A stretch of 47,889 nt of DNA, taken from positions 1 through 47,889 of IMG/VR virus record IMGVR_UViG_3300046535_000420; one strand, given 5' to 3'. The translations under genes were made by a program, and so were the position numbers. Below, piece by piece: positions 11,077 to 47,889 of the stretch; the first letter of the stretch is position 1, and every line of letters begins with the position of its first letter. The notes beneath the pieces were generated by a model. The model was not told the DNA's origin. It searched no databases and saw only the letters and a program-made list of their open reading frames with translations. This DNA comes from a virus.

Positions 11077-13434
11077 TCAAGTTACCCCCGTCGTGATTAG
11101 ACCAGCCTGCAACCGCTCAAGAAGAGCATCCATTCCTCCGGGAGGAGCGTCTACATCTATCTCAGCACTTCTATCTGTATGACGGTAAGTTTTTGCCATG
11201 ATCTTGCGGTAGGTCTTGTCAGACGCATCTACGAAACTAATGTAGTCGCCCGAATGTACTTGGGCCACTGGTCTGAGAACGTTCTTGTCATCGAAGACGT
11301 ACCCTTTCAAGGTTGCCGACCCAGACCTGCTAATCAAGTTGGCTTCTTCGAGAAAGCGTTTGCCTACTGCTACAGCGGTTTCAGGTGTAGCTATGCCCTG
11401 CAAGTCAAGGATGTCGCGCCGGGTGCGCCCCGCCTTTACAGCGGGATGGTCCGGGTCTGTGATCTCAAGCAGTGCTGATTCAGAGTCACACCCAGAACCC
11501 GGTGCACCTGCTGTCCTGGTCACCCCACTTGCATCTGTGTAGCGAACTGTGATTTTTCGCCACAGCCGTTGCGAGTCAAGGCCCACTTCGTTCAACCCTG
11601 ACTCCGCCACGTAAGCCTTCCAGAACCTACCATAAGTTCCTGGTTTACGTAGCTCCATCCTCTTGCCGTTGTAGACGAACCAGTCATACAGACCATATTT
11701 CGTAAGGTCATGCATGATGTCGCCAAGGGCCTGCCCGTCGGAGTACCACGCTTGGGTAATCACATACCCATCATCATCGATAAATTCAGGGTCAACGGTA
11801 AGTGGGGCGGCAAAGTTTTTGATTAGGTATTCAACCATCTGCTTTGCGCTGAAGCCGATGTTAGGCCAGACTCCTAGAGGGACTAGCCCGTGTCGCCCGA
11901 GTACCTTGAGATTAAGAAAGGCACGAGTATTGGTGAAAGTTTTGCCTTCTAGGGCACCAAGGTATCTACTTTGTACGAGCGCGTATTTTCGACCTCCTCC
12001 CCCCGCTGCTAGAGATTGTTGAAGTGCAGTAACGGATTCCATCGAAGCACTAAGATCAGCACCTGACAGCAGATCATCACTGCCCAAGCCAACTAAGTCC
12101 GACATATTTGCATCTTTCGGCGCTCCGTTTAAGGCTCGGTAATCCCAGCGCAGTCCTCCGATCTCAGGTCCACCACCGTAATAGATCAACTCGTTAAACG
12201 GTGTAGTCCCAGCTTCAACGCTAGAAAGAACCATCATAATGCCAGGTCCATAAGTTAGATCCTGTATCAAAGACGAAAACTCTTGTGTGTATCTATAGGG
12301 ACGGCCTGCGATGGCCGCTTCCATATTTAAGATTTTACGGCGGGACGAGCCCTCTCCCCATTTTGAAAGATCACAATCGATGAAGCCAACCTGAGCAGCC
12401 TGGTCGTCATCTAGTATGTATTGATATCCGAGGGCCGATGGGGAGATTGAGAATTGCTCGCCGCTAACGGTCGGACCCTTATCCAAAGAACCCTGCCAGA
12501 CTACCTCCCCGCCGGGCTCATAGACCTTGATATCTCCGTAAGCTCCTAAGTCACGGTAATCTTTTTTCGGGTCACGCGCGAGAGTCCCGCTTAGTTCCTT
12601 GTTACCTCCGGGTATCTCATCTGAGAACTCCAGATCAGACAGCACGTTATCGACAGCTCCCTCATCTTCCGCCCAACGATTTGAGTTCCCATTCGGAGAG
12701 TCGATACGTACTGCCAGTTTGTCAGGTGGTCTCTCTCTCGTAATTGGCGCTGGGACAAAAGGCTGTGCAGCAGCCCAATGTTCATCAACAATTGCTGGCG
12801 TTAGAACCACATTGTAGACGGCAAAGTTTTGGACAAAGCCTTTGAATATGGACCCGCCGCCCGACGGGTTACCTGCAACGGTGACCCCATCGTTGCTGTT
12901 ATTAGCTCCGGCGGCGAAAGCTGCATCAACGGATTTGAATAAACCTCCAGCAACACTTCTAACATAGATTATGACTTCGGTCCCAGAACTTGTAAGTACG
13001 ATGTGGTAGTTGGTATTTTTAATGGGCGTCGTTGGTTTCTCAATTTTGGTATTGCCACCAAGAGCTGGAAGCCATTGGTCAGCAGCGCTTGAGTTGAGAA
13101 ACATGGAGTACCCGCGAAGTGCGTTGTCCCAAAGCGCATAATTGGGTTCGGCAAGAAGCTCGTCGCCACTCATAAAGCACTCGATACTTACTGGACCTTT
13201 ACCCAAGCGTAATCCTGCTACATCAGGAACGGCCATTTTACCACCAGTAAAGTGAACAGAACTTCCCTCACCGCTTGGTAACAGACTCGGCTGATTTAAG
13301 ACATAGCTTCCTGAGTATGTACCATCTTTAACGGCAGCCGAGTCAACGGCAGTAACTCCTGCTGCATCATAAAGAGAATGCAGGGTTATTATCCCCGGTG
13401 TAGCAAGCTGTTTGTCACGTAAAGGAGTTGCCAT
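11077..13434 (-). CDS. Minor tail protein with LamG-like domain
   Basis: This 785-residue protein has at about 20-225 a concanavalin/LamG-like jelly roll (GIITLHSLYDAAGV, VHFTGGKMAVPD, GPVSIECFMSG, GFVQNFAVYNVVLTPAIVDEHW), a fold that often binds carbohydrate. The rest resembles tail-tip or baseplate-hub proteins of siphoviruses (ELSGTLARDPKKDYRDLGAYGDIKVYEPGGEVVWQG broken by loops, and WRKITVRYTD near the end). A role at the tail tip in host recognition is inferred. The ATG is in a TGATG overlap with the preceding minor tail gene; a TTG one codon earlier is less likely. Confidence 0.78.
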   Translation of the reverse strand: MATPLRDKQLATPGIITLHSLYDAAGVTAVDSAAVKDGTYSGSYVLNQPSLLPSGEGSSVHFTGGKMAVPDVAGLRLGKGPVSIECFMSGDELLAEPNYALWDNALRGYSMFLNSSAADQWLPALGGNTKIEKPTTPIKNTNYHIVLTSSGTEVIIYVRSVAGGLFKSVDAAFAAGANNSNDGVTVAGNPSGGGSIFKGFVQNFAVYNVVLTPAIVDEHWAAAQPFVPAPITRERPPDKLAVRIDSPNGNSNRWAEDEGAVDNVLSDLEFSDEIPGGNKELSGTLARDPKKDYRDLGAYGDIKVYEPGGEVVWQGSLDKGPTVSGEQFSISPSALGYQYILDDDQAAQVGFIDCDLSKWGEGSSRRKILNMEAAIAGRPYRYTQEFSSLIQDLTYGPGIMMVLSSVEAGTTPFNELIYYGGGPEIGGLRWDYRALNGAPKDANMSDLVGLGSDDLLSGADLSASMESVTALQQSLAAGGGGRKYALVQSRYLGALEGKTFTNTRAFLNLKVLGRHGLVPLGVWPNIGFSAKQMVEYLIKNFAAPLTVDPEFIDDDGYVITQAWYSDGQALGDIMHDLTKYGLYDWFVYNGKRMELRKPGTYGRFWKAYVAESGLNEVGLDSQRLWRKITVRYTDASGVTRTAGAPGSGCDSESALLEITDPDHPAVKAGRTRRDILDLQGIATPETAVAVGKRFLEEANLISRSGSATLKGYVFDDKNVLRPVAQVHSGDYISFVDASDKTYRKIMAKTYRHTDRSAEIDVDAPPGGMDALLERLQAGLITTGVT

Positions 13435-15347
13435 CAAATTTCACTCACGAAGTGGTAGCCAGGGAAATAGAAGACCTTGGCAACTATTTTGTGATTACCT
13501 ACGTCCGCTTGCGTTAAGTGATCGCCCCTGCTAGGTACGATCAGACCGCGCACGGCCCGAGCCTCCAAGCCGCTAGGCGGAGCGTAAGGCAAGAACCCGT
13601 CCGGTACTCCTCGTCCCCAAACATTATCAGTCAGATGCTGGCGGAACACTCCATCGCTGCGAAGCTCGATTGAACGTCCCGCAAAACAAACCCTATTTTC
13701 ATCAGTGCTGGTTGAGTAGTACACCGTCACAGATATAAGATCAACTTTCGCTTCTCCTTCGGCTGCTGCTATTAGCTTTGCAGTGAGCACCACCCCGAAG
13801 GTTGCAGCGTTTATTTGTGCCGGAGTCCAAGTTTCTCCCCAGAGATCTGTTGAACCTCCGTACGTTTGTACTTCATCGCCGGTTCCCCAAGCATTACCCA
13901 GAGCCTTGTTTTCTCCAACTTCAACTCCAGCCTTTCGGAGCATTATGAAACTATCGCGTACTGTACTTGCAAAATTGGCTGAACGCTCAACCGATACCAC
14001 TACCCCTGTAATAGCTGCTTCGGCTGGTATGGCAAATCCAAATTCCGAAGCAACTATGTCCCCAGAACTTTCAGGGCCAACGGGTTTGGGAGCCATAACT
14101 GCCGTAGCTCTAACATTGTCGGAGGCTTTAATGTTTTCAGGGTTAACCCAAGCGCCAGAGATTTTAGTTCCTTTGGCTGGGTTTTTTGAACTCTGGTTCT
14201 CAGGTTGCAATGTAACTGGAGGAGCGTTCAGTGCCATCATCTGCTCGATCGGAAGTATGTAAACAACATCTATTTGCACAGATGAGCCTGCTGCAATGTT
14301 ACGTGTGCGAGCTAGCAGTTTCCATTCCCAACGCTGTTCCCCTAGTACAGCCGCTTCAGGAATCACTTCACCAAGATCAACCTTAGAAAAGCTTCCAGAT
14401 ACCACTATACGCACTGCCTTGTTTTCACTCCACTTGGCAGAACTGAGCGGCCTCCAGACAAGCTTGAGTTCTATGTTTTCAGACACAGCCCCCATGTCTT
14501 TTACCCGCATCCAGACTCTGCGCGGACCTGTGTGTGTCATGTGTCCTGACGCTACGACTTTGGAGCTCAGTACAGAAAGGAACCCAGTTGACAGTGCTGC
14601 ATTCTGAACAACATTCCCCGAGGAGGCTTCTCCCACTGCAACTTCGGTCGAGCCCCCGGCCAGTGTTAGTTTCTCACACTCATAGAAGATATCAGCGGTG
14701 GTGTTCCTGGTACCTACCGCTGCAAGGTCTCGCGACTCCATCGCAGCCAAGAGACCTTTCCAATCGGTCGCCCCGTTGTTTTTGATCTGCACCCGACAGA
14801 GACCCGGAGCCGAGCCCTTGATGTTGGCAATTTCCCACTCCAACTGCGAAGCGTTTTCGATTTTGAATTCTGCAGATTCTACCTCGGTGACACCGTAGAA
14901 GTAAGGCCCGGTTACTAGGTTGAGAACTACCTCGGGAGCAGTCTGCCTGTGCGCCATTAGCCAGCCCTGTAGGCCACTTATGGAGGCTCCCCTTACCTGC
15001 ATGGCTACGTCTGTTGTGAAACCGGCAGTGGGGTCCAACACGCGCTTTAGGAACCCACCCTCTCTTTGCCATGTGCCAATCTTCTTTTGTATCTTGGCGG
15101 CTGCGTCTGGGAGTTTGGTTGCGCCCTCCTTACGAACTACGAGAGGGATGGACACGTTACGATTGGGTGGGTGGCGGTCGGCAGGAATTTCACCCATAGC
15201 CTGTCGTATAAGAAAGAGCTCAATCTCGGAGTCGCCCCAGTCTGCTCCTGCCTCACCGATGGAAAGCCCTATGTCATCCAAACCAAGTTCAGTACGGTTA
15301 GCGATAAACACAGCCGGATCACATATGATTGTCTCAGCGGTGGGCAC
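13434..15347 (-). CDS. Minor tail protein, distal-tail type
   Basis: This 637-residue protein directly follows the tape measure, the usual position of the distal tail protein. The N-terminal 200 residues (IGEAGADWGDSEIELFLIRQ, NRNVSIPLVVR, KIGTWQREGGFLKRVLD) look like the actinophage minor tail/Dit family. The remainder is beta-rich with jelly-roll-like stretches that may be accessory binding domains. The start is a GTG overlapping the tape measure TAG by one base. Carbohydrate binding is possible but not shown. Confidence 0.75.
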   Translation of the reverse strand: MPTAETIICDPAVFIANRTELGLDDIGLSIGEAGADWGDSEIELFLIRQAMGEIPADRHPPNRNVSIPLVVRKEGATKLPDAAAKIQKKIGTWQREGGFLKRVLDPTAGFTTDVAMQVRGASISGLQGWLMAHRQTAPEVVLNLVTGPYFYGVTEVESAEFKIENASQLEWEIANIKGSAPGLCRVQIKNNGATDWKGLLAAMESRDLAAVGTRNTTADIFYECEKLTLAGGSTEVAVGEASSGNVVQNAALSTGFLSVLSSKVVASGHMTHTGPRRVWMRVKDMGAVSENIELKLVWRPLSSAKWSENKAVRIVVSGSFSKVDLGEVIPEAAVLGEQRWEWKLLARTRNIAAGSSVQIDVVYILPIEQMMALNAPPVTLQPENQSSKNPAKGTKISGAWVNPENIKASDNVRATAVMAPKPVGPESSGDIVASEFGFAIPAEAAITGVVVSVERSANFASTVRDSFIMLRKAGVEVGENKALGNAWGTGDEVQTYGGSTDLWGETWTPAQINAATFGVVLTAKLIAAAEGEAKVDLISVTVYYSTSTDENRVCFAGRSIELRSDGVFRQHLTDNVWGRGVPDGFLPYAPPSGLEARAVRGLIVPSRGDHLTQADVGNHKIVAKVFYFPGYHFVSEI

Positions 15348-37759: not shown

Positions 37760-37958
37760 GGCCAACCTTGGGATGGTCTTTCATGTCCCTTCGCACAGAC
37801 GCAACCAGTTGCTCCATGGACGCGGCTTGGGTTCCTTGTGATGCTTCTATGTACTCCTTGACACACTCACCCATTGCTTGGCCTACTGTTGGTCGGCTGA
37901 ACAGGTAGCACAGCATACTCAATCGTGGGTGTTTGTCCTTGATCGGTTTAGGTACCAT
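37746..37958 (-). CDS. Hypothetical protein, 70 residues
   Basis: The ATG has AAGGAG 9 bases upstream, within the end of the MazG-like gene. It is helical (YLFSRPTVGQAMGECVKEYIEA, MEQLVASVRRDMKDH). It overlaps the helicase start by 14 bases and might be a helicase partner or loader, but this rests on position only. Confidence 0.58.
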   Translation of the reverse strand: MVPKPIKDKHPRLSMLCYLFSRPTVGQAMGECVKEYIEASQGTQAASMEQLVASVRRDMKDHPKVGRGTT

Positions 37959-38253
37959 CTGTCATGACTCCTTGTTCCAGTAGGTACTCCATCCAGGCTG
38001 CGGCTACGGCAGCCACTTGCATGAGCTCTAAGAACAGATTACCCATAGCCGCAGTGTCACCGGCAGCCTTCTTGAGTATCTCTGTGCTTACCTCTCCGAA
38101 CTCCTCACCGAGGCAAGCAAGACGTTCCTCGTCTGTCATCTCCGGATCACAGCAAGTGTGCTCGAAGTCACCATCCTGTTTGCGTATCTCCTGGAGTGAA
38201 CGCTCACGCTCTATGTAGCGCAGGGCCTCGGCACGCTTCCGTGTGTCAGCCAT
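37948..38253 (-). CDS. MazG-like nucleotide pyrophosphohydrolase
   Basis: The 101-residue protein has the all-alpha NTP-PPase pattern: Glu50, Glu51 and Glu54 in LGEEFGEV, then Glu76 with Gln79 in ELMQVAAVAAAWMEYL. The family removes pyrophosphate from (d)NTPs or ppGpp. Gln replaces the second-motif Asp found in classical MazG, which may alter metal binding. The ATG at 38253 overlaps the previous gene by 8 bases; earlier codons are upstream shadows. A CCDPE stretch near residues 34-38 is unusual. Confidence 0.78.
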   Translation of the reverse strand: MADTRKRAEALRYIERERSLQEIRKQDGDFEHTCCDPEMTDEERLACLGEEFGEVSTEILKKAAGDTAAMGNLFLELMQVAAVAAAWMEYLLEQGVMTDGT

Positions 38254-38497
38254 CGACAATACCGTGTGCGACACGAGCCATCTCGTAGCCCAGAGCGACC
38301 GACGCCACAACCAAGTGTAGCGGCGGCGTCAGCTCCAGGTTCCAATCAATGAGCTCAATCGCAGCCTCGATCTGCCCTTGACTCTGTCCAACCTGTGGCC
38401 AGAAACCGTTAGGCCCCATGTTGAAACTGTCTTCTATCTTATCCGCGATCCCCTTGATCTCTTCGGCAGTCAGTATCTCCGGCAGTGGTTGGCTCAT
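38246..38497 (-). CDS. Hypothetical protein, 83 residues
   Basis: It starts in an ATGA overlap with the preceding gene. A mostly helical protein (TAEEIKGIADKIEDSFNMG, QIEAAIELIDWNLELTPP, HLVVASVALGYEMARVAHG). No family is recognised. Confidence 0.6.
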   Translation of the reverse strand: MSQPLPEILTAEEIKGIADKIEDSFNMGPNGFWPQVGQSQGQIEAAIELIDWNLELTPPLHLVVASVALGYEMARVAHGIVDG

Positions 38498-38727
38498 GGT
38501 GTCGGTACTATGTGGTTGATCTTGGGCGGACCAGCCGGGACAGTGAACTCATATGGAGGAGCATCCTTCCCGAAGCTGATGTAGGGCTCTGGATCAGCCA
38601 CATCTATGATTACCCGGAACCGAACACCCGCCTCGAACGTCTCAGTTAGTTTTTTGAATATTTGCTGTCTCTCCATATCCCGCTTGTTCTTGGTGTGCTC
38701 TACCCACCTTGCATCGTCGTCGTTCAT
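38494..38727 (-). CDS. Hypothetical protein, 77 residues
   Basis: Coupled by ATGA to ThyX upstream and the next gene downstream. It has an N-terminal charged helix (WVEHTKNKRDMERQQIFKKL) and a beta part (GVRFRVIIDVADPEPYISFG). No family is recognised. Confidence 0.6.
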   Translation of the reverse strand: MNDDDARWVEHTKNKRDMERQQIFKKLTETFEAGVRFRVIIDVADPEPYISFGKDAPPYEFTVPAGPPKINHIVPTP

Positions 38728-39620
38728 ACCTTCCTCCTTGCGGCTGCCGGATCAAGCAACCACTCTCTAGTATCTATCTCGTCGAACTTACCTTCTTCGA
38801 CGCGCGGCCGTATGGTGCAACCCCGGTCGAACGATGCTGTGAACGGGCACTTGCCCATGCTGAAGCACACCGGCCGGAACAGGTTGCTCTTGGCAATGTG
38901 CTTGAACTGCCAACCATCCTCTTTCACGTAGTCGGCGACCGGCGTCTTGTAGTCGTGGATGGCCTTGATCATCAGTGTGAACACTTCACGCCATTCAAAC
39001 TGCGCTTGCGTACACAGCCTGTTACCGGCGTGATCGATCAAGCCCCTCAGATTGGTCTTGTAATGTACACGCGTCGGCGTAGCGTGCGGCATAAGGCCCC
39101 GTGCATCCTCTGCGGGCACACCCATGTTGACGAGCACCTTGTAGGCCTCATCTATAGCCTCGATCGCGCCGTCCCAGATGCTACGTGCGATGTCCTGTTC
39201 AGACGCACTCTGGAACACACCGCTCTGCCCACTGTCTGTCAGGCTAGGTGGCTTGACCGCCTCCTTGACGAGGTCTTCCTTGACCGCAAACCGCATGCTC
39301 TCCTGCGCATACACAGCCGTGCGCTGTCGCACCAGTTGGTGTGTGAAACTACGGGTCACGCCCTCCAACAGGAAGTGCAGGTCCACGTACTCCAGCGGTG
39401 CCTGCAAGTGTGTCTTCTGAATGTCCTCAAAGAAGCTGCGTCGTTGCTCATCGGTCAGGTCTGTCTTGTCACGGATGACCTTACCCGTGTAGATGTTCGA
39501 CGCAGCCGCGATGGAACCCAAGGGGTCGGGCGTCGCGGCTAGCAACTGAACACTCAGCCCCTCCACCGGCTCGGCACTGTACATGGCAGTGTCTGCCCAC
39601 TTTTGAATATCTGTACCCAT
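38724..39620 (-). CDS. thyX: Flavin-dependent thymidylate synthase
   Basis: The 298-residue protein has the ThyX core: EYVDLHFLLEGVTRSFTHQLVRQRTAVYAQESMRF. The signature spans residues 98-110 as RQRTAVYAQESMR, so the canonical Ser6, Asn8 and Glu9 of RHRxxSxNExSxR are Val, Ala and Gln, a phage-type variant. MPHATPTRVHYKTNLRG and TQAQFEWRE complete the substrate and flavin region. It would methylate dUMP using NADPH and folate, or a modified pyrimidine reaction. A Cys-rich C-terminal part (PVCFSMGKCPFTASFDRGC) extends the usual length. Confidence 0.85.
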   Translation of the reverse strand: MGTDIQKWADTAMYSAEPVEGLSVQLLAATPDPLGSIAAASNIYTGKVIRDKTDLTDEQRRSFFEDIQKTHLQAPLEYVDLHFLLEGVTRSFTHQLVRQRTAVYAQESMRFAVKEDLVKEAVKPPSLTDSGQSGVFQSASEQDIARSIWDGAIEAIDEAYKVLVNMGVPAEDARGLMPHATPTRVHYKTNLRGLIDHAGNRLCTQAQFEWREVFTLMIKAIHDYKTPVADYVKEDGWQFKHIAKSNLFRPVCFSMGKCPFTASFDRGCTIRPRVEEGKFDEIDTREWLLDPAAARRKV

Positions 39621-40331: not shown

Positions 40332-43300
40332 CTATGGTTGTAGTACGTACATCTTCTTCACTTCAAGGATGGACGATCGTTCGTCATCCCCGAAGCTGTT
40401 CTTCTTACACTCACACACGAGCACATCCTTGCCAAGCTCTATGCCCCAGATAGCCTCCTTGAATTTCGGGTACACAAAGCGGTTGAACGTAAGCACCACG
40501 CTGTCGTCAGCATCTCTAGCGTGCATAACCACGCGCTCAAAAAGGTCTGGTCGTTTGACGGTCGCAGGGTCAAGCTCCTCTCCTGTCTTAGATAGGTGTG
40601 CCTCAAAGATGTTCTTGAGGTTGCGGGATATGCCAACGCCCATCCACACAACCTTGCCCTTCGGTACGTCCAACACTTCTTCTGAGTTGTGTGTTGGCTT
40701 GGGTAAGCCCATGCCCTCAAGCTCGTCCTTCACACCTTCAAGTGTTTCCTCCAGCTTGTACACATCGAACGGGTCCTCTTGGTTGATGAACTCTGCAATA
40801 CGTGTGACAGCGGCTTCCCCTATGCCATGGACCTTTTCAATTTCAGGCAGGCTCTTTAGCCCACCGTTGTCGGTGGCAAACTCAACAATCTTCTGTGCGG
40901 TTTTCTCACCGATTTTTGGAATCTGTTCCCAGCCTGCACGGATGACGCCCTCGCGCTCCGGCAGCCAATGCACGCCGCTGTCAAGGTTGGGTGGCAGAAC
41001 CTCTGTGGGCTTGCGCGGGCCTTTACCACGTATGGCATCCCGACGCAGGTTCAGTACCTTCTGCTTGCCCTTGTCGCTTGAGCTGGATCGTTCTGTCACC
41101 ATCATGGCTGCGGCAAAGAACTCTGTGGGATGCTTGCGCTTGAGCCACATGGACCAGTACGCAATCATGGCGTAGCTGAAGCTGTGTGCTGCGTTGAAGG
41201 CGTACACCCCGGCAGTCACGCACTTGTTCCACATAGCCTGCGCTTCCTGTTCATCCATCGGCGGCATATCTGGGTCACGCTTGTGTAGTTCTAGAGCGCC
41301 GTCCCTAAACCTTTTCCACTGTTTCTGGAACTCCTGCTTGCCCATCTTCTTGCTGATGATCTTGCGTATGTAGCCAACGCCCTCCCAGTCGAACCCGCCT
41401 ATCTCGTGTACGATTTTCATGATCTGCTCTTGGAAGATGATCTGCCCACGTGTGTCCTTGGTGATGCTGGCCAGCGCCGGGTGCATGTGTGGTTCCTTGC
41501 CACCGAACTTCGCTTCGATGTAGCCCGACACGCCGCCACCATGCAGTGGGCCTGGCCTGGCCAGCGCAATCAGCAGGGCAAGCTCTGCGAAATGTTCTGG
41601 CTGCACTGACGCGGTCACGGTGCGTGTGATCTTGCCGTCGAACTGGAAGATGCCGACCGTGTCGTTTTCATTGAACCCCTGTAGTACCTCCGGGTCATCC
41701 AGTGGCAAGTTGTAGAGTTCTTCCAAGTCCATATCCAAATTGTGCAGCGCCTCGGCGATCATGTCCATGGTGTTCAGGCCAAGAAGGTCAAGCTTCTCAA
41801 GGCCCTGCCGCACGCAGTCGTGCTTGTCCATGGACAGCACCGTCATCCAGTTGCCGCTGCCCTTGGGCACTTCCTTCTTGATCGTAGCACATACACTCTC
41901 GATCGGCTGAGTGCTCAACACCAACCCGGCCGCGTGTACCCCGAACCCTTTGACGTTACCCTCCAGGTCCATTGCGTTCTGGAGCTCGGGGTACTTAGTG
42001 AACACATCACCCGCCTCCTCGAACTGGTTGGCGGTGTCCTCAATGGTGGCGCTAGCACGCAGGTCGCCCGAGGACCGTTCGATCAGCAACCCTTTCACTG
42101 TAATGGCTGCCGCCTTGGGTATACGATACACTCGGGCTGTGTCATCTAGACTGTTCTTCGCCTTGTAGTACGTGAACGTACCAATATTGTTCACACAGTC
42201 CTCGCCGTATTTGTCCACGGCATACTGACGGATGATGGGCCTGCCGTAGCTTGCGAAGTCAAGATCGATGTCAGGCATGTCAGCACGTGACCAGTCGATG
42301 AACCTCTCAAAGACCAAGTACTCGTAGTCCATAGGGTTGATCTCGGTGATGCGCAGTAGCCAGCACACGAGCGACGCAGCCGCGCTGCCCCTAGCAGGCC
42401 CGACGGGTATCTGCTGCCGCTTGGCGAACCGCACGATGTCGGACGTGATAAGGAACAGGTTTTCATACCCCTTGGCCTCAATGACCTCCATCTCTTTATT
42501 CAGTTGGTCGCGGTAACGCCGCCGCTCCTTGGCGGGCAAGTCACGGCAGCCCCGATAGTCCCAGCCCTTGCGCAGCCAGTCGCGCCACAGGTCCCGTGCG
42601 CTGTCGTAGCCGTCAGGCAGTGGGTACTGCACCTGCGGCAGCCGTGGCAAGGTGACTGAGCACTCCTGCCCAATCTCCTCTGTACTCACTATGGCCTCTA
42701 TCGCCTGCTCCTTGGTCAGTCCGGTGTTCTTGAGCTTGCGGTAGAGTTCTTTGTCTGTGAGTGGGTGGCAGAGCGGCGCTTCGTATCCCCAATCCCTAGC
42801 CAGTTCCTCTGCCGAACGCTTCTCACCAGGGCGGACAGCGTGTAGTCCTTGCTGGATCTCTGACTCCTCAGGAATTGTATAGTGACAGTCGACCGTGGCA
42901 ACCAGACTTCTATGTATCTCACGTGCAATATCGGCGAGCATAGGGTTTGCCCGCCGAGTCTTATCGAGCTCTGGGAATGCTTGGACCTCGATATAGAAAT
43001 CGTCAAGCCGGTCAGACATCCAGCGAGCCACCTTAAGCCCTCGCTGATAACTCGCTTCGTCCTCGGCGACATGCTTACCTCCTACTAGTGCTGTGAATAG
43101 TGCGGACCCCTGGCAGCCCGACAGCACCACTAGGCCCTTCTGAAACTCCACAAGCCACCGCCAGTCAACGGTCGGCTCGTAGTAGAACCCGGCAGCCCAT
43201 GACAGGTTCACAAGGTGCAGCAGGTTGGCATACCCCTCAGCGTTCTTGGCCACCACGGTCAAGTGGTTCTTTTTCTGCGCCCGCCGCTTCTCGTCCGTCC

Positions 43301-43673
43301 AACCCATGTAGAACTCACACCCGAACAGGGGCTTGACACCTATCTCCTCTGCCGCCTTCTCCAGCTTGACATGACTGAAGATGTTGCCGTGCTCTGTCAT
43401 GGCCAGGGCACCCATCTCTAGCTCGCTGGCCCGCCGCACGTGTGCCTCGGGCATTTGGAACCCGTCTAGGAAGCTGAACGTACTATGGTGATGCAGGCTG
43501 ACGAACCGCATAGGCTTCAGCCCTGCGTTAGCCTCTGCGACTCGCCTGCCTTTCTTGGCACGTACTGCGAGCGGCTGGAAGTCGAAGTGCTTCTTCTGCC
43601 CCTCCTGGAACGTGCTGACCTGTGCGTCGTCAGCGCCGTGCCCGTGCCACGCTTTGCCTTTGGTTTTACTCAT
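40332..43673 (-). CDS. dnaE: DNA polymerase III alpha subunit (DnaE-like)
   Basis: The 1113-residue replicative polymerase has an N-terminal PHP domain (LHHHSTFSFLDG at 60-71, TEHGNIFSH, GCEFYM, VATVDCHY), a C-family catalytic core with GPARGSAAASLVCWLLRIT and the metal-binding PDIDLDF near residue 468, FVNNIG-type and YVFERF-type motifs, and a C-terminal helix-hairpin-helix (GIGEAAVTRIAEF). The PHP metal ligands look largely intact, so Mn-dependent proofreading is possible. It is coupled by ATGA to the small gene before it. Phage-encoded DnaE with its own primase and helicase suggests an autonomous fork. Confidence 0.9.
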   Translation of the reverse strand: MSKTKGKAWHGHGADDAQVSTFQEGQKKHFDFQPLAVRAKKGRRVAEANAGLKPMRFVSLHHHSTFSFLDGFQMPEAHVRRASELEMGALAMTEHGNIFSHVKLEKAAEEIGVKPLFGCEFYMGWTDEKRRAQKKNHLTVVAKNAEGYANLLHLVNLSWAAGFYYEPTVDWRWLVEFQKGLVVLSGCQGSALFTALVGGKHVAEDEASYQRGLKVARWMSDRLDDFYIEVQAFPELDKTRRANPMLADIAREIHRSLVATVDCHYTIPEESEIQQGLHAVRPGEKRSAEELARDWGYEAPLCHPLTDKELYRKLKNTGLTKEQAIEAIVSTEEIGQECSVTLPRLPQVQYPLPDGYDSARDLWRDWLRKGWDYRGCRDLPAKERRRYRDQLNKEMEVIEAKGYENLFLITSDIVRFAKRQQIPVGPARGSAAASLVCWLLRITEINPMDYEYLVFERFIDWSRADMPDIDLDFASYGRPIIRQYAVDKYGEDCVNNIGTFTYYKAKNSLDDTARVYRIPKAAAITVKGLLIERSSGDLRASATIEDTANQFEEAGDVFTKYPELQNAMDLEGNVKGFGVHAAGLVLSTQPIESVCATIKKEVPKGSGNWMTVLSMDKHDCVRQGLEKLDLLGLNTMDMIAEALHNLDMDLEELYNLPLDDPEVLQGFNENDTVGIFQFDGKITRTVTASVQPEHFAELALLIALARPGPLHGGGVSGYIEAKFGGKEPHMHPALASITKDTRGQIIFQEQIMKIVHEIGGFDWEGVGYIRKIISKKMGKQEFQKQWKRFRDGALELHKRDPDMPPMDEQEAQAMWNKCVTAGVYAFNAAHSFSYAMIAYWSMWLKRKHPTEFFAAAMMVTERSSSSDKGKQKVLNLRRDAIRGKGPRKPTEVLPPNLDSGVHWLPEREGVIRAGWEQIPKIGEKTAQKIVEFATDNGGLKSLPEIEKVHGIGEAAVTRIAEFINQEDPFDVYKLEETLEGVKDELEGMGLPKPTHNSEEVLDVPKGKVVWMGVGISRNLKNIFEAHLSKTGEELDPATVKRPDLFERVVMHARDADDSVVLTFNRFVYPKFKEAIWGIELGKDVLVCECKKNSFGDDERSSILEVKKMYVLQP

Positions 43674-43867: not shown

Positions 43868-43965
43868 CCCGGAAAGGTGTGCGCCGTCAACGGCGCTCCG
43901 CCGAACTCCAGCCAGAAGTTATGCCAGCCGAGCGCCCAACATCTTATCCAATACTCAGAAGGCAT
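43864..43965 (-). CDS. 33-residue Trp-stripe microprotein
   Basis: Closed by a TGATG overlap at the start and ATGA at the end, with GGAGG 8 bases before the ATG. The peptide MPSEYWIRCWALGWHNFW has Trp at positions 6, 10, 14 and 18, one every four residues, so a helix would show one Trp face. The end is Gly/Pro-rich (EFGGAPLTAHTFPG). Such a peptide could bind membrane or a partner groove. No family is recognised. Confidence 0.66.
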   Translation of the reverse strand: MPSEYWIRCWALGWHNFWLEFGGAPLTAHTFPG

Positions 43966-44759
43966 CAGTCAGTCCTCCACCAACCATTGCGACCGTCTCG
44001 GTTGCATTCTCTCATACAAGCAATAGCCATTGCACAGTAGTTGATGATGTCTAACAAGTCATCCTCATCGCCCGGCAAGTGATGGTCATCTGGCTGATTA
44101 AACAACACATGCCACACACGTTCAGCCTTGCGACGCATGTTGAATATGGCACCCCGCCACCCATAGTTCTTCCACGAGTCACCGTACTGCGGGTCGCGAG
44201 TAGACATAATGGACAGCGCATGTTCTAGAATATTTTGATGCTCGGCCAGATGCTTTGGTACATGAGTAATGTTCTCAACCATCTCAGGTGTGAACACAGT
44301 ACCCCATACAGGTTCTCCATCCTCTACTTCCTCCGGCGTGTTTTGCCAAGGGCCTTCCACACCAAACTCTGGTCGCTTCTCTGGCAGCAACCCTTCGGTG
44401 GTGATGACCTCCGCCCGCAGTGTGCCCGGACCAGCTAGCCATATGCGCCCGCTGCCTGCGTCACGTTCCAGAAAGTTGCACTCTTTCAGTGCGCGGAACG
44501 TGTCTTGCGTTACCACAGCCCTGAAGTGTGTAAGCCCCGGAGGGCCAGCGTGCTCGTCACCCTCACCCTCCTGCACCACGTGTACTTTGAAACCGTTGTC
44601 ATCTTCGAAGTGCTTGTACGTCCAGGCTGTGTTCCTGGCTGCATATTGCGTGTCCGGCGGAACCTCACGCAAGCCAAGTAGCTCCAGCATCCTAGTAGCC
44701 TCTGTCATGGCCACCTGATGATTGGGAATGGCCACTGTCAAGTGGTCGAGTTTAATCAT
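43965..44759 (-). CDS. VOC (glyoxalase-like) domain fused to a DUF1599-like nucleotide-modification domain
   Basis: This 264-residue protein starts with a VOC-fold domain (IKLDHLTVAIPNHQVAM, FKVHVVQEGEG, LTHFRAVVT, GTLRAEVIT; metal-ligand candidates His6, His78 and Glu117) and ends with a domain like DUF1599/Nmad1 (QYGDSWKNYGWRGAIFNMRRK at 191-211 read in parts, DEDDLLDIINYCAMAIACM), a family linked to phage nucleotide modification. The fusion is unusual. The ATG at 44759 has GGAGACA just before it and overlaps the previous gene by 8 bases. I infer a role in a modified dNTP pathway. Confidence 0.7.
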   Translation of the reverse strand: MIKLDHLTVAIPNHQVAMTEATRMLELLGLREVPPDTQYAARNTAWTYKHFEDDNGFKVHVVQEGEGDEHAGPPGLTHFRAVVTQDTFRALKECNFLERDAGSGRIWLAGPGTLRAEVITTEGLLPEKRPEFGVEGPWQNTPEEVEDGEPVWGTVFTPEMVENITHVPKHLAEHQNILEHALSIMSTRDPQYGDSWKNYGWRGAIFNMRRKAERVWHVLFNQPDDHHLPGDEDDLLDIINYCAMAIACMRECNRDGRNGWWRTD

Positions 44760-45024
44760 TGTCTCCGTCCTTGTCGTATGGGAATAGCTTGCCGTCATGG
44801 TGCATTTTGAAGAAGCTCCACCTGTTCTTGTCAGCCTTCAGCACCGCCCAAGTCTTGTCGGGCACTGCTTCGGGGTTGACACGGATAGCAAAGATGAACG
44901 ATTCATAGTCTGGGTCGTAACTGTCAGCGTCGATGACCACATCTTGCGTCTCAGAGTAGTAACCGACGGTAGCTAAGCTGAATGCCTGCTCCTTGTTTAG
45001 TTTGAAATTTCTACCTCGTGCCAC
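44752..45024 (-). CDS. Hypothetical protein, 90 residues
   Basis: The GTG at 45024 has GGAG 7 bases upstream, inside the end of the SDR gene. Alpha/beta content (KLNKEQAFSLATVGYYSETQD, YESFIFAIRVNPEAVPDKTW, RWSFFKMHHDGKLFPYD). It lies between the SDR and VOC-DUF1599 genes and may be part of the same pathway. No family is recognised. Confidence 0.6.
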   Translation of the reverse strand: MARGRNFKLNKEQAFSLATVGYYSETQDVVIDADSYDPDYESFIFAIRVNPEAVPDKTWAVLKADKNRWSFFKMHHDGKLFPYDKDGDND

Positions 45025-45727
45025 CGAAGAGCTCCAGGTTTGTGCCGGAGAGCCAGTCGGCCTCGGGTAGCGTGCAGAGCATATGAACGATGCACCCAAT
45101 CTCATATGGATCCATCAGCCGCATCTTGTTGTCCTTGAACGCATAGTCGTCCGCTTCCCTACGGTCCATGCCACGATTCTCCATGACGCCTTGCTGTACG
45201 ACCTCCCACATAGGTGAGTCGGGCACGTGGTACGGGTGGACAACGTGTGTGTGAAACCCCTCACGGGTTAGCTCCCAGCCCAACACCTTGCCTGCCATAT
45301 CCAGGCCCGCCTTGGCTGCGCAGTACGGCACACCATTGGTGAATGGGTGCCGGTGTGCATAGCTGCCGATCAGAATGATCTTCCCGCCCTTACCACTCGG
45401 CCCACGCTGTTCCACGTACTTGCGAACCACTTGAAGCGGGATCGTCAAACAGGCGTCGATCACTTCTTGGATGGCTAGGGAAGTGAGGTCTACAAAAGAC
45501 TCCATAGTTACGGTGCCGAGTGACACTACTAAGGCATCGGTTTCTTCCCATCTCTCACTATGAATCCCGGGCACTCCGTACACGGGCTTGCCGGTGCCGT
45601 CACTCGGCAGCTTGGCATCGTGCGACCATACCTGCCATCCGCTGTCGTTCATGCACTCGCGGATGCCGTCGCCGATGTTGCCAGAGCCGGGTCGAGCTCC
45701 GATGATAAGCATTGTCTTGTTACTCAT
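45011..45727 (-). CDS. Short-chain dehydrogenase/reductase (SDR)
   Basis: The 238-residue protein has a Rossmann nucleotide site (GARPGSGNIG, residues 10-19), catalytic-type Ser122 in LIGSY, and Tyr135 with Lys139 in YCAAKAG, the classical SDR triad. The fold should reduce or oxidise an alcohol/ketone with NAD(P)H. SDRs are rare in phage genomes; between the HAD nucleotidase and VOC-DUF1599 genes it suggests a nucleotide or sugar substrate. It overlaps the HAD stop by 8 bases. Confidence 0.75.
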   Translation of the reverse strand: MSNKTMLIIGARPGSGNIGDGIRECMNDSGWQVWSHDAKLPSDGTGKPVYGVPGIHSERWEETDALVVSLGTVTMESFVDLTSLAIQEVIDACLTIPLQVVRKYVEQRGPSGKGGKIILIGSYAHRHPFTNGVPYCAAKAGLDMAGKVLGWELTREGFHTHVVHPYHVPDSPMWEVVQQGVMENRGMDRREADDYAFKDNKMRLMDPYEIGCIVHMLCTLPEADWLSGTNLELFGGTR

Positions 45728-46364
45728 GGTTCGCTATCCACTCCTTGATCTTGATTTCAACTAAAGGTCTAACAGCATCGAGATAGATGCCACCTGCACC
45801 ATCTGATACGTTCCATTGAGTACGTACCCACATAGCAACTTCCCAATGAAACACTTTCTGAGCTTCACTAATGTTGGTGGCAAGGTCATCCACGATGGCG
45901 ATGACCCTCTCTGGTGACTCTAGCCTGTCGTGAAGCACTTGATACTTGTTCTCGTCATACATCAGGTAGTCATACTGAATACCCTTGCGCCGCAACCACT
46001 CCCGTGTATCCGGGTCCACGTTGTCCAGCCGCAAGTATGGCCGGGTGGTGGTCAGCCATAGCTCTGCGCCAGCGGCCCGTATGCGCTCGCACAGGTCCGC
46101 TGCGTTGTCAAACAAGGGCATGGTCCTCTTGAGGCCACCTTGCCGGTAGGCGAGCTTACAATCGCGGAAGGCTGCACGGGTGATGCCGAGCTCCCTTATG
46201 GCCCAAGCACTCATTGGCTCGCCGCCTGTGTACAGGCTGCTAACCGTCTTGTCAAAGTAGTCCTCTGCGAACTCTTCAAAGTGCGCGTGGTAGTTGCCGA
46301 GAGTGCCGTCAATGTCAACGGCCACGATCGGCTTGACGATGGTGCCGCAGCCAGTGCATCTCAC
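45720..46364 (-). CDS. HAD-family 5'-deoxyribonucleotidase-like phosphatase
   Basis: The 214-residue protein has motif I VDIDGTLGNYH with Asp17 and Asp19, motif II TTTRPY, and motif IV IVDDLATN. This resembles the 5'(3')-deoxyribonucleotidases of actinophages. It would dephosphorylate deoxynucleoside monophosphates or an intermediate of the neighbouring enzymes. The start is ATGA-coupled; the N-terminus contains CTGCG, which may bind metal but could be chance. Confidence 0.76.
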   Translation of the reverse strand: MRCTGCGTIVKPIVAVDIDGTLGNYHAHFEEFAEDYFDKTVSSLYTGGEPMSAWAIRELGITRAAFRDCKLAYRQGGLKRTMPLFDNAADLCERIRAAGAELWLTTTRPYLRLDNVDPDTREWLRRKGIQYDYLMYDENKYQVLHDRLESPERVIAIVDDLATNISEAQKVFHWEVAMWVRTQWNVSDGAGGIYLDAVRPLVEIKIKEWIANHE

Positions 46365-47179
46365 GCTGACACTCTCCCCGTCTGTGTCCTCAACACAGCC
46401 TCATCCACTTGCCCGGTCACATCTGTCAGCAACACTTTGCGATCCCACGTGCCGAACCGCCCGATGCGATGTATCTCAGGGAAACAGTTGCACGCAGTGC
46501 CCAACGGCTTGAACCCTGTGATGTAACCCGGTTTGCCTGCGGGTGCATCGTAGTGGCTGTACTCGGTCCAGCACTCTCCGAAGAGTTTACAGGCCCGGTA
46601 CCACTTGTCCTCAGTCTTGCCGTTGTAGATGACCACGTTGTCAGTAGGCAAGAAGCTCGGCTCCTCCTTGCGTATGAGTATGTTGGCACGCGGGAAGTCG
46701 TGTAAGTCCGGCCGCTTGCACAGATGGCTAGCGGGTACCGAACTCAAGATGAGCGTCTCGGCATCCGGCTCCTCCGCCAGCAATTGTTCCACCGAGGTTG
46801 GTGTTGCCCGCCACCCTCCTTCAATCATATGGCGGAACCTACTGAAGAGTGTGGTGTAGTTGGCTTGCAACCGCCACGCCTTCTGCACGTTGCCGTACTC
46901 GCCCCAGCTTGTCGGCACGTGCGGGCTACCGTACACCTTCTCGGCGTACACATCTGGCTTACCTACCTTGATGAACTCAATCAAAGCATCTGGTGGCGCA
47001 TCCTCATCGAGCATAGGTAGGTGTAGGTACTGCGCCCCACCTATGGGTGACGGCTCCTTATGTAGCGTTTTGAACTCAATGTTGACGTTGGCGAACCCGT
47101 GGTCACGGTTCAGTTGGTGTGCGGCCAACAATGCAGCGGGGCCACAGCCTAGAATGATTGCTCTCTTTTCAATACTCAT
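46361..47179 (-). CDS. FAD/NAD(P)-binding oxidoreductase-like protein
   Basis: The 272-residue protein opens with a Rossmann dinucleotide site (AIILGCGPAALLAAHQL, Gly11/Gly13 and Ala15). It lacks the length of a full flavoprotein reductase, and the remainder (VEQLLAEEPDAETLILSSVPA, FGTWDRKVLLTDVTG) resembles phage NAD-binding proteins of unknown substrate. It is the first gene of the metabolic cassette and is ATGA-coupled to the primase and HAD genes. Confidence 0.66.
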   Translation of the reverse strand: MSIEKRAIILGCGPAALLAAHQLNRDHGFANVNIEFKTLHKEPSPIGGAQYLHLPMLDEDAPPDALIEFIKVGKPDVYAEKVYGSPHVPTSWGEYGNVQKAWRLQANYTTLFSRFRHMIEGGWRATPTSVEQLLAEEPDAETLILSSVPASHLCKRPDLHDFPRANILIRKEEPSFLPTDNVVIYNGKTEDKWYRACKLFGECWTEYSHYDAPAGKPGYITGFKPLGTACNCFPEIHRIGRFGTWDRKVLLTDVTGQVDEAVLRTQTGRVSA

Positions 47180-47889
47180 GTCATCTCCTCGTAGGGTTTT
47201 GCCATCTCGGTCAACAGGCCCAGCGCCACACGCGGCTGTTCCGCGTCCAACAGAAAGTCTGTGAGATCTCTACCACCCTTAGGCTTCCAGCCATAGGGCA
47301 GCTTGCATATGTGAACGTTCGACACAGCCGCGAGTGCTTGTGCCGTTATCTCTGTGGCTGTGTCGCCTTGCTTGTCTACGTCTTGACACACGTACACGTT
47401 CAGTCCAGCAAAGGCCACCGTCCATTCAGGGTGCCACGGCTTGCCTGCGCCGTCTGTGCGGGTCACAGTGGGCCAGCCGGTTTGTAAGCCCAGCAGTGCA
47501 TCCCACTCGCCCTCTGCGAATATCACACTGTCGCCAGGGTCCAGCCGCTCCATGACGCCTGCCGGGTACAGGCGGGGCCGGTTGCTGCCGCGCACACCCC
47601 ATATCTTGCGTCGTCCCATGCGCGGTTTGGGATCGTATGTTCTCACGTTCCATAGCTCCCGCTCTGGTGACCACACAGGGATCTTGAAATGCCTGCCATC
47701 CCAGCCAAGCTCTGCCCGCTTGGCCGTGGCCTTGGTGATGCCACGTAATTCGAACAGGTACCGCAAGCGTTCGGGGTCATGGATCAACCGCTTGTGCCAG
47801 GCGACTACCTCCTTCTTGAGTTTCTTTTCGTTGGGGATAGGGCCGAAGGACTGGGCCAGGCCGGAGAGCGGGTTACCATCTTTCACCCG
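47176..47889 (-). CDS. DNA primase, C-terminal part (gene crosses the contig join)
   Basis: The rest of the 311-residue primase whose N-terminus is at 1-349. The TOPRIM set is Glu200 in FAEGEWDA and Asp244/Asp246 in CQDVDKQGD; these bind the metals for primer synthesis. It ends in an ATGA overlap with the FAD/NAD-binding gene. The last 127 bases duplicate the left end. Confidence 0.88.
   Translation of the reverse strand, partial: RVKDGNPLSGLAQSFGPIPNEKKLKKEVVAWHKRLIHDPERLRYLFELRGITKATAKRAELGWDGRHFKIPVWSPERELWNVRTYDPKPRMGRRKIWGVRGSNRPRLYPAGVMERLDPGDSVIFAEGEWDALLGLQTGWPTVTRTDGAGKPWHPEWTVAFAGLNVYVCQDVDKQGDTATEITAQALAAVSNVHICKLPYGWKPKGGRDLTDFLLDAEQPRVALGLLTEMAKPYEEMT
47763..47889. repeat. Exact terminal repeat, right copy (circular-contig overlap)
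   Basis: Second copy of the 127-base overlap. It lies inside the primase gene and encodes the same residues as bases 1-127. It should be counted once when the genome is circularised. Confidence 0.95.

Follow-up and report, generated by a model that had tools for sequence, protein, structure and literature searches.

A five-gene cassette between primase and DnaE

We have analyzed the IMG/VR virus record IMGVR_UViG_3300046535_000420 (47,889 bases; the window, meaning this whole stretch of DNA), and within it a cassette of five genes located between primase and DNA polymerase genes. The five genes are contiguous on the minus strand and the stop and start codons of neighboring genes overlap, so the initial annotation was right in describing them as translationally coupled. 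Read along this strand, on which all the features given below lie, the order is part of a primase gene, an oxidoreductase, a HAD phosphatase, a short-chain dehydrogenase/reductase (SDR), a 90-residue open reading frame (ORF), a fusion of a VOC domain with an Nmad1-like domain, a DnaE-type DNA polymerase III alpha (40332-43673; assigned through Pfam, PHROG and neighborhoods, and the constant downstream neighbor), small ORFs, a ThyX, more small ORFs and a MazG-like gene.

The oxidoreductase (46361-47179, 272 residues) is the core member of the set. It matches phrog_8720 (E 2e-34) and gives no Pfam match on its own. Its AlphaFold2 model, built from an alignment of 57 relatives, had a predicted local distance difference test (pLDDT) score of 94.2, and a Foldseek search returned UDP-galactopyranose mutases as the best PDB structures (top hit 5eqf, E 3e-7), with D-amino-acid oxidases and flavin adenine dinucleotide (FAD) monooxygenases close behind and template-modeling (TM) scores of 0.5-0.6. 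The predicted fold, an FAD-binding N-terminal motif and a C-terminal GRxGxW motif are common to UDP-galactopyranose mutases, D-amino acid oxidases and our protein, but the latter is shorter (~270 residues vs 340-390) and 9-15% identical to them. Membership of the UDP-galactopyranose mutase family was rejected, given ~10% identity, the lack of a family match and a resemblance limited to the fold. According to the model, the oxidoreductase is a compact FAD-type flavoprotein with a UDP-galactopyranose-mutase/D-amino-acid-oxidase-like fold, in agreement with the dinucleotide-binding protein annotated at this position. Scanning viral contigs with the single sequence found no relatives, while an alignment-based scan found 238. 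In the 57 closest relatives, C154, C230 and C232 are invariant or nearly so; they are missing in the mycobacteriophage/Gordonia branch, and possibly form a second metal site in one oxidoreductase subfamily.

Regarding the HAD protein (45720-46364, 214 residues; phrog_415, E 9e-17), it contains the DxDGT, Thr, Lys and DD elements of the superfamily, and in an alignment with 10 homologues the motifs DxDGT, TTR, K and DD (T106, K140, D160) are invariant or nearly so. It is of the NT5C/PNKP type, resembling 5'-deoxyribonucleotidases and the PNKP phosphatase, as expected from its annotation as a nucleotidase-type phosphatase, and has homologues in 82 phage records. In Nocardia phage P3.1 (locus L011, 12986-13696) the HAD homology is out of frame with the annotated coding sequence (13026-13727), and the gene appears to be misannotated.

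The SDR (45011-45727, 238 residues; Pfam adh_short, E 4e-12) has the annotated Ser-Tyr-Lys triad intact, with Ser122, Tyr135 and Lys139 invariant among nine aligned sequences. Although its glycine motif is the variant GARPGSGNIG, it falls among the classical, FabG-like SDRs and not the extended nucleotide-sugar epimerases, and its closest PDB sequences are generic ketoreductases. The next gene (44752-45024) encodes the 90-residue protein of unknown family. We placed its start at the GTG at 45024 because its homologues are 84-88 residues long; these occupy the same slot in loci L006 and L020, and lie downstream of ThyX in L029 and L041.

The fusion protein (43965-44798) has 277 residues, or 264 if translated from the ATG at 44759. 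Its VOC domain (residues 19-133, 44400-44744) has no Pfam match, and the VOC assignment of the initial annotation is supported by structure prediction: the AlphaFold2 model shows the beta-alpha-beta-beta-beta module twice, the paired arrangement of the VOC/glyoxalase superfamily, and the best Foldseek matches are FosB and glyoxalases (E 2e-5). Candidate metal ligands (H, H, H and E, in H19, KVH, THF and AEV) are kept across the alignment of window-type VOC domains. The second half is an all-alpha domain (residues 182-263, 44010-44255), with predicted helices at residues 182-205, 213-234 and 244-263. It had been annotated as DUF1599/Nmad1-like. The direct match to Pfam DUF1599 (PF07659) stays below the cut-off (E 0.12, 13.2 bits vs 25), so this name could not be kept by itself. 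We call the domain Nmad1-like because the fusion matches phrog_1485 (E 3e-8) and because an iterated profile seeded from the domain converged on 156 proteins, including 65 of the 65 free-standing third genes of the actinophage modules described below, with no match among reversed sequences. The weak PF07659 match, phrog_1485 and the all-alpha domain are thus what it has in common with Nmad1/DUF1599. A PDB sequence search gave no match for Nmad1 or the fusion.

A module shared by distant phages, with a variant ThyX

Using the oxidoreductase in tblastn, we identified 120 actinophage records, from phages of Gordonia, Microbacterium, Mycobacterium, Streptomyces, Arthrobacter and Nocardia. They follow a scheme in which RecA, Cas4 or primase genes are followed by the oxidoreductase, HAD, Nmad1-like gene, a variable choice of SDR, methyltransferase and VOC, then DnaE and ThyX. 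In Microbacterium phage Ajin, the oxidoreductase, HAD, SDR, VOC-like and Nmad1-like genes are arranged as in the window, the last two being separate genes. Gram-negative phages were reached through ThyX: Serratia phage WR01 and Escherichia coli phage Bas101 carry ThyX, a HAD+Nmad1 fusion, SDR, VOC and DnaE together, and Pseudomonas phage PB1 carries ThyX, HAD+Nmad1 and DnaE, PB1-like phages being without SDR and VOC. Upstream, these three encode a 318-333-residue protein with the oxidoreductase motifs GxGLAG and GRFATWRN(I/V)LLDD; scores against the oxidoreductase profile are weak (E 4e-5, 3e-3 and 5e-3), and position and both motifs support the assignment. This Gram-negative branch counts 359 records, for a total of ~480 phage records with the oxidoreductase, from actinophages and from E. 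coli Wifcevirus, Serratia, Xanthomonas and Pseudomonas PB1-like phages. Genes co-occurring in no other phage would have spoken against the reading of the initial annotation; the set is instead shared by phages infecting Actinobacteria and Proteobacteria, and some of these have its domains split or fused in other ways. Our literature search found no description of this module.

The domains of the module are exchanged between genes. VOC and Nmad1 are fused in the window, L006 and L020, and separate in L034, L128 and L160; the Nmad1-like domain is elsewhere free-standing or, as in PB1, Bas101 and WR01, fused to HAD. Three such HAD+Nmad1-like fusions (L177 8973-10013, L178 8801-9673 and L179 8827-10251) are annotated as 'polynucleotide kinase/phosphorylase' or HAD-like, and none of the three has a kinase domain according to Pfam. 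The Nmad1 of the Ajin gp59 type was outside the reach of the profile seeded from the window. The SDR occupies the same slot in the modules of cluster D, DV, Ajin, P3.1, Bas101 and WR01. As to the VOC genes, placing the window and Ajin types in one subfamily was rejected, since hhalign finds no alignment between them, and we treat them as two VOC subfamilies occupying the same slot. We found the Ajin type in 54 of the 50,697 phage records; genus by genus, the numbers agree with those of the oxidoreductase (Escherichia 27/27, Serratia 9/9, Xanthomonas 6/6 and Pantoea 3/3).

To quantify co-occurrence, we gathered 133 loci with distinct oxidoreductases and counted the 117 non-redundant ones with DnaE at most 6 kb downstream. 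Nmad1 was found in 113 of them, always between the oxidoreductase and DnaE, ThyX in 106, HAD in 97, SDR in 47, a methyltransferase in 18 and VOC in 14; several of the 11 loci without ThyX are truncated contigs. The gene content is nested, with SDR occurring only with HAD (47/47) and VOC only with SDR (14/14). Part of the loci had been fetched with HAD as the query, and the nesting also holds (25/25 and 4/4, respectively) when only the 76 loci retrieved through the oxidoreductase are counted. On the oxidoreductase tree we counted 21 changes for SDR, 8 for VOC and 5 for HAD; no independent supported pair shows VOC and SDR changing in opposite directions, the sign tests being underpowered. A stepwise pathway would be expected to produce such nested content.

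The ThyX of the window (38724-39620) is a clear member of Pfam Thy1 (PF02511; E 4e-34, 118.6 bits vs a cut-off of 24.8). It departs from the RHRx7S motif, as do all 109 module ThyX proteins, which carry Q, S or T in place of the middle His (RQR in the window). We use the label 'variant ThyX' because of this replacement, claiming no thymidine monophosphate (dTMP) synthase activity. Besides, 103 of the 109 share four cysteines (C203, C252, C258 and C268 in the window), and three have all four replaced at once, as expected for one common site. From this pattern we propose a putative metal or iron-sulfur site; no ThyX with a four-cysteine site of this kind is known to us from earlier descriptions. 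PB1, Bas101 and WR01 have RTR and the corresponding cysteines, while the ThyX of phages Trax, C3PO and LuckySocke, which are module-free in the region read, has the canonical RHR and lacks the cysteines. M. tuberculosis ThyX belongs to the same fold family and can be aligned with module ThyX, but is without the one module cysteine that falls inside the aligned segment. The three module proteins with all four cysteines replaced come from the Microbacterium phages CoolCookie (L003) and Hiddenleaf (L017) and from Arthrobacter phage Wollypog (L004); in the first two, ThyX directly follows the oxidoreductase and HAD is absent. The initial annotation had correctly noted a variant ThyX, and 'a few genes away' understated its role, since ThyX regularly accompanies the other module genes.

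The gene set and its order, the intact catalytic residues, the two predicted folds, the cross-phylum co-occurrence and the nested gene content are direct results. We consider it very probable that the oxidoreductase, HAD, Nmad1 and variant ThyX form one system with the phage polymerase, to which SDR, VOC and methyltransferase add further steps.

Other features complete the description. The small gene at 37948-38310 had been called MazG-like; the gene is there, and its MazG assignment is weak, as it gave no significant Pfam or NCBIfam match and only one to a PHROG of unknown function (phrog_2831, E 4e-9). At the other end, the primase/helicase gene (47176-47889; phrog_6088, E 8e-9) is cut by the end of the window, where the record was linearized. 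The record begins and ends with the same 127 bases (1-127 and 47763-47889), and the window is therefore probably one complete circularized phage genome; assemblers commonly use k-mers of this length as well, so the repeat may have a technical origin and reflect circular closure instead of a genuine terminal repeat. No DNA-level relative of the window was found among the GenBank phage set. The record IMGVR_UViG_3300046533_000294 (129,757 bp; L112 and L150) contains two different module copies separated by ~65 kb, both of which comprise oxidoreductase, HAD, SDR, Nmad1-like gene, methyltransferase, DnaE and ThyX. Finally, Gordonia phage Suzy gp57 (L014 11007-11747), annotated as 'methyltransferase', is Asp-rich with an acidic tail and resembles 'Asp-rich' genes at the same slot in cluster D phages.

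A proposed route to a modified deoxynucleotide

The initial annotation had suggested that the cassette would suit making, trimming or salvaging an unusual deoxynucleotide. We lean, if only slightly, towards a module that makes a modified deoxynucleotide for the phage DNA, incorporated by the phage's own DnaE. The cassette would be the variable portion of this otherwise conserved pathway. Co-occurrence and the published restriction resistance of phages with the full set (PMC11990801) support this reading, in which the modified deoxynucleotide itself is what we infer. The variant ThyX, with its altered nucleotide/flavin motif and putative four-cysteine site, would build a 5-substituted deoxyuridine monophosphate, instead of or besides dTMP. 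The compact flavoprotein, together with the SDR where present, would oxidize or reduce the substituent, and the putative metal-binding VOC enzyme could then convert the product of the SDR by a rearrangement, a lyase reaction or an oxygenation. Mono- or triphosphates would be the substrates of the HAD phosphatase and the Nmad1 domain, which would either clear canonical competitors or process the modified nucleotide, and DnaE would incorporate the product, hindering restriction enzymes. All substrates, the order of the steps and the identity of the base in this scheme are likewise inferred. As ThyX regularly belongs to the module, our guess, a tentative one, is that the base derives from thymine. 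With similar caution, we suggest that this may be a new DNA-modification pathway based on a four-cysteine (possibly iron-sulfur) ThyX variant with a product other than dTMP, elaborated stepwise by flavoprotein, SDR and VOC and present in ~1% of sequenced phages, including therapeutic Pseudomonas PB1-like phages.

The E. coli Wifcevirus phages are reported to resist, in vivo, almost all restriction systems tested and have no known genome-protection mechanism (PMC11990801). Absent sites are not the reason, since Bas101 has 15 EcoRI, 7 EcoRV, 7 EcoKI and 90 EcoP1I sites. All four isolates, Bas98-101, carry the module VOC gene, and Bas101 was found to contain the full set. Results for PB1-like phages, which have neither SDR nor VOC, are mixed. 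In the available text of another report, the PB1-like phages AA20 and AC20 resist 10 and 7 of 16 enzymes, absent sites not being discounted (PMC11945000).

Several points weigh against our proposal. Wifcevirus phages are sensitive to EcoP1_I (PMC11990801), SacII cuts the DNA of the PB1-like phage JG024 (PMC3008698), and HindIII and MspI/HpaII cut AA20 and AC20 DNA (PMC11945000). The module has no constant dedicated kinase or base-transfer enzyme, and the literature searched contained no report of a modified nucleoside for any of these phages. The SDR-HAD nesting is partly shared ancestry; HAD changes only 5 times on the tree, and the sign tests are underpowered.

One could argue that the module serves plain nucleotide supply, with ThyX making dTMP, HAD and the Nmad1/MazG-like proteins recycling or clearing nucleotides, and the flavoprotein and SDR regenerating folate or flavin cofactors for ThyX. 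ThyX requires reduced flavin and folate, the HAD is like deoxyribonucleotidases and PNKP phosphatase, and several enzymes do cut PB1-like DNA. We consider this explanation unlikely, as it leaves without explanation the VOC enzyme, the altered motif and cysteines of ThyX, the turnover of accessory genes (21 SDR changes on the tree) and the restriction resistance of Wifcevirus phages. The top Foldseek matches could also point to a nucleotide-sugar pathway, in which the flavoprotein, similar to UDP-galactopyranose mutases, would work with the SDR to produce an unusual sugar donor for the glycosylation of phage DNA. Glycosyltransferase genes do lie near the module in WR01 and in Ajin, whose gp65 (L016 17234-18310, between DnaE and ThyX) could act on a modified base. 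However, no glycosyltransferase is constant in the module, the SDR is not of the epimerase type, and the fold leaves the substrate unfixed because the TM-scores are 0.5-0.6 and the scores of D-amino-acid oxidases and FAD monooxygenases are almost as high, which makes a sugar pathway quite improbable. Counter-defense, in which the module degrades or alters a host signaling nucleotide and not DNA, would suit the possible use of free nucleotides by HAD, Nmad1 and SDR and the insensitivity of Bas98-101 to the other defense systems tested (PMC11990801), but is very improbable, as the fixed place in the replication operon (primase/RecA to DnaE) and the constant ThyX suggest DNA precursor metabolism.

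Significance and comparison with thymidine hypermodification

The modified-deoxynucleotide reading proposes a genetic basis for the published and unexplained restriction resistance of Wifcevirus phages, a link that can be tested directly in the phages of the BASEL collection with laboratory E. coli as host. If true, it would mean new phage DNA chemistry and a new ThyX activity, and would give functions to families annotated as 'oxidoreductase', 'phosphatase' or 'hypothetical protein' in ~480 phage records, including therapy phages.

Thymidine hypermodification, known from Pseudomonas phage M6 and Salmonella phage ViI and, in its M6 form, the characterized system nearest to ours, involves a phage thymidylate-synthase relative and tailoring enzymes encoded near replication genes, and is associated with restriction resistance. 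An M6-type enzyme set was rejected for our module, as the proteins of the M6 replication region match none of the oxidoreductase, HAD, Nmad1, ThyX, SDR or VOC profiles (best E 0.02); gp58 of M6, annotated as thymidylate synthase, is among those unmatched by the module ThyX profile. The general arrangement is alike: in both cases a thymidylate-synthase relative and a set of tailoring enzymes, putative in our module, lie near replication genes, and restriction resistance is reported for the module-bearing Wifcevirus phages.

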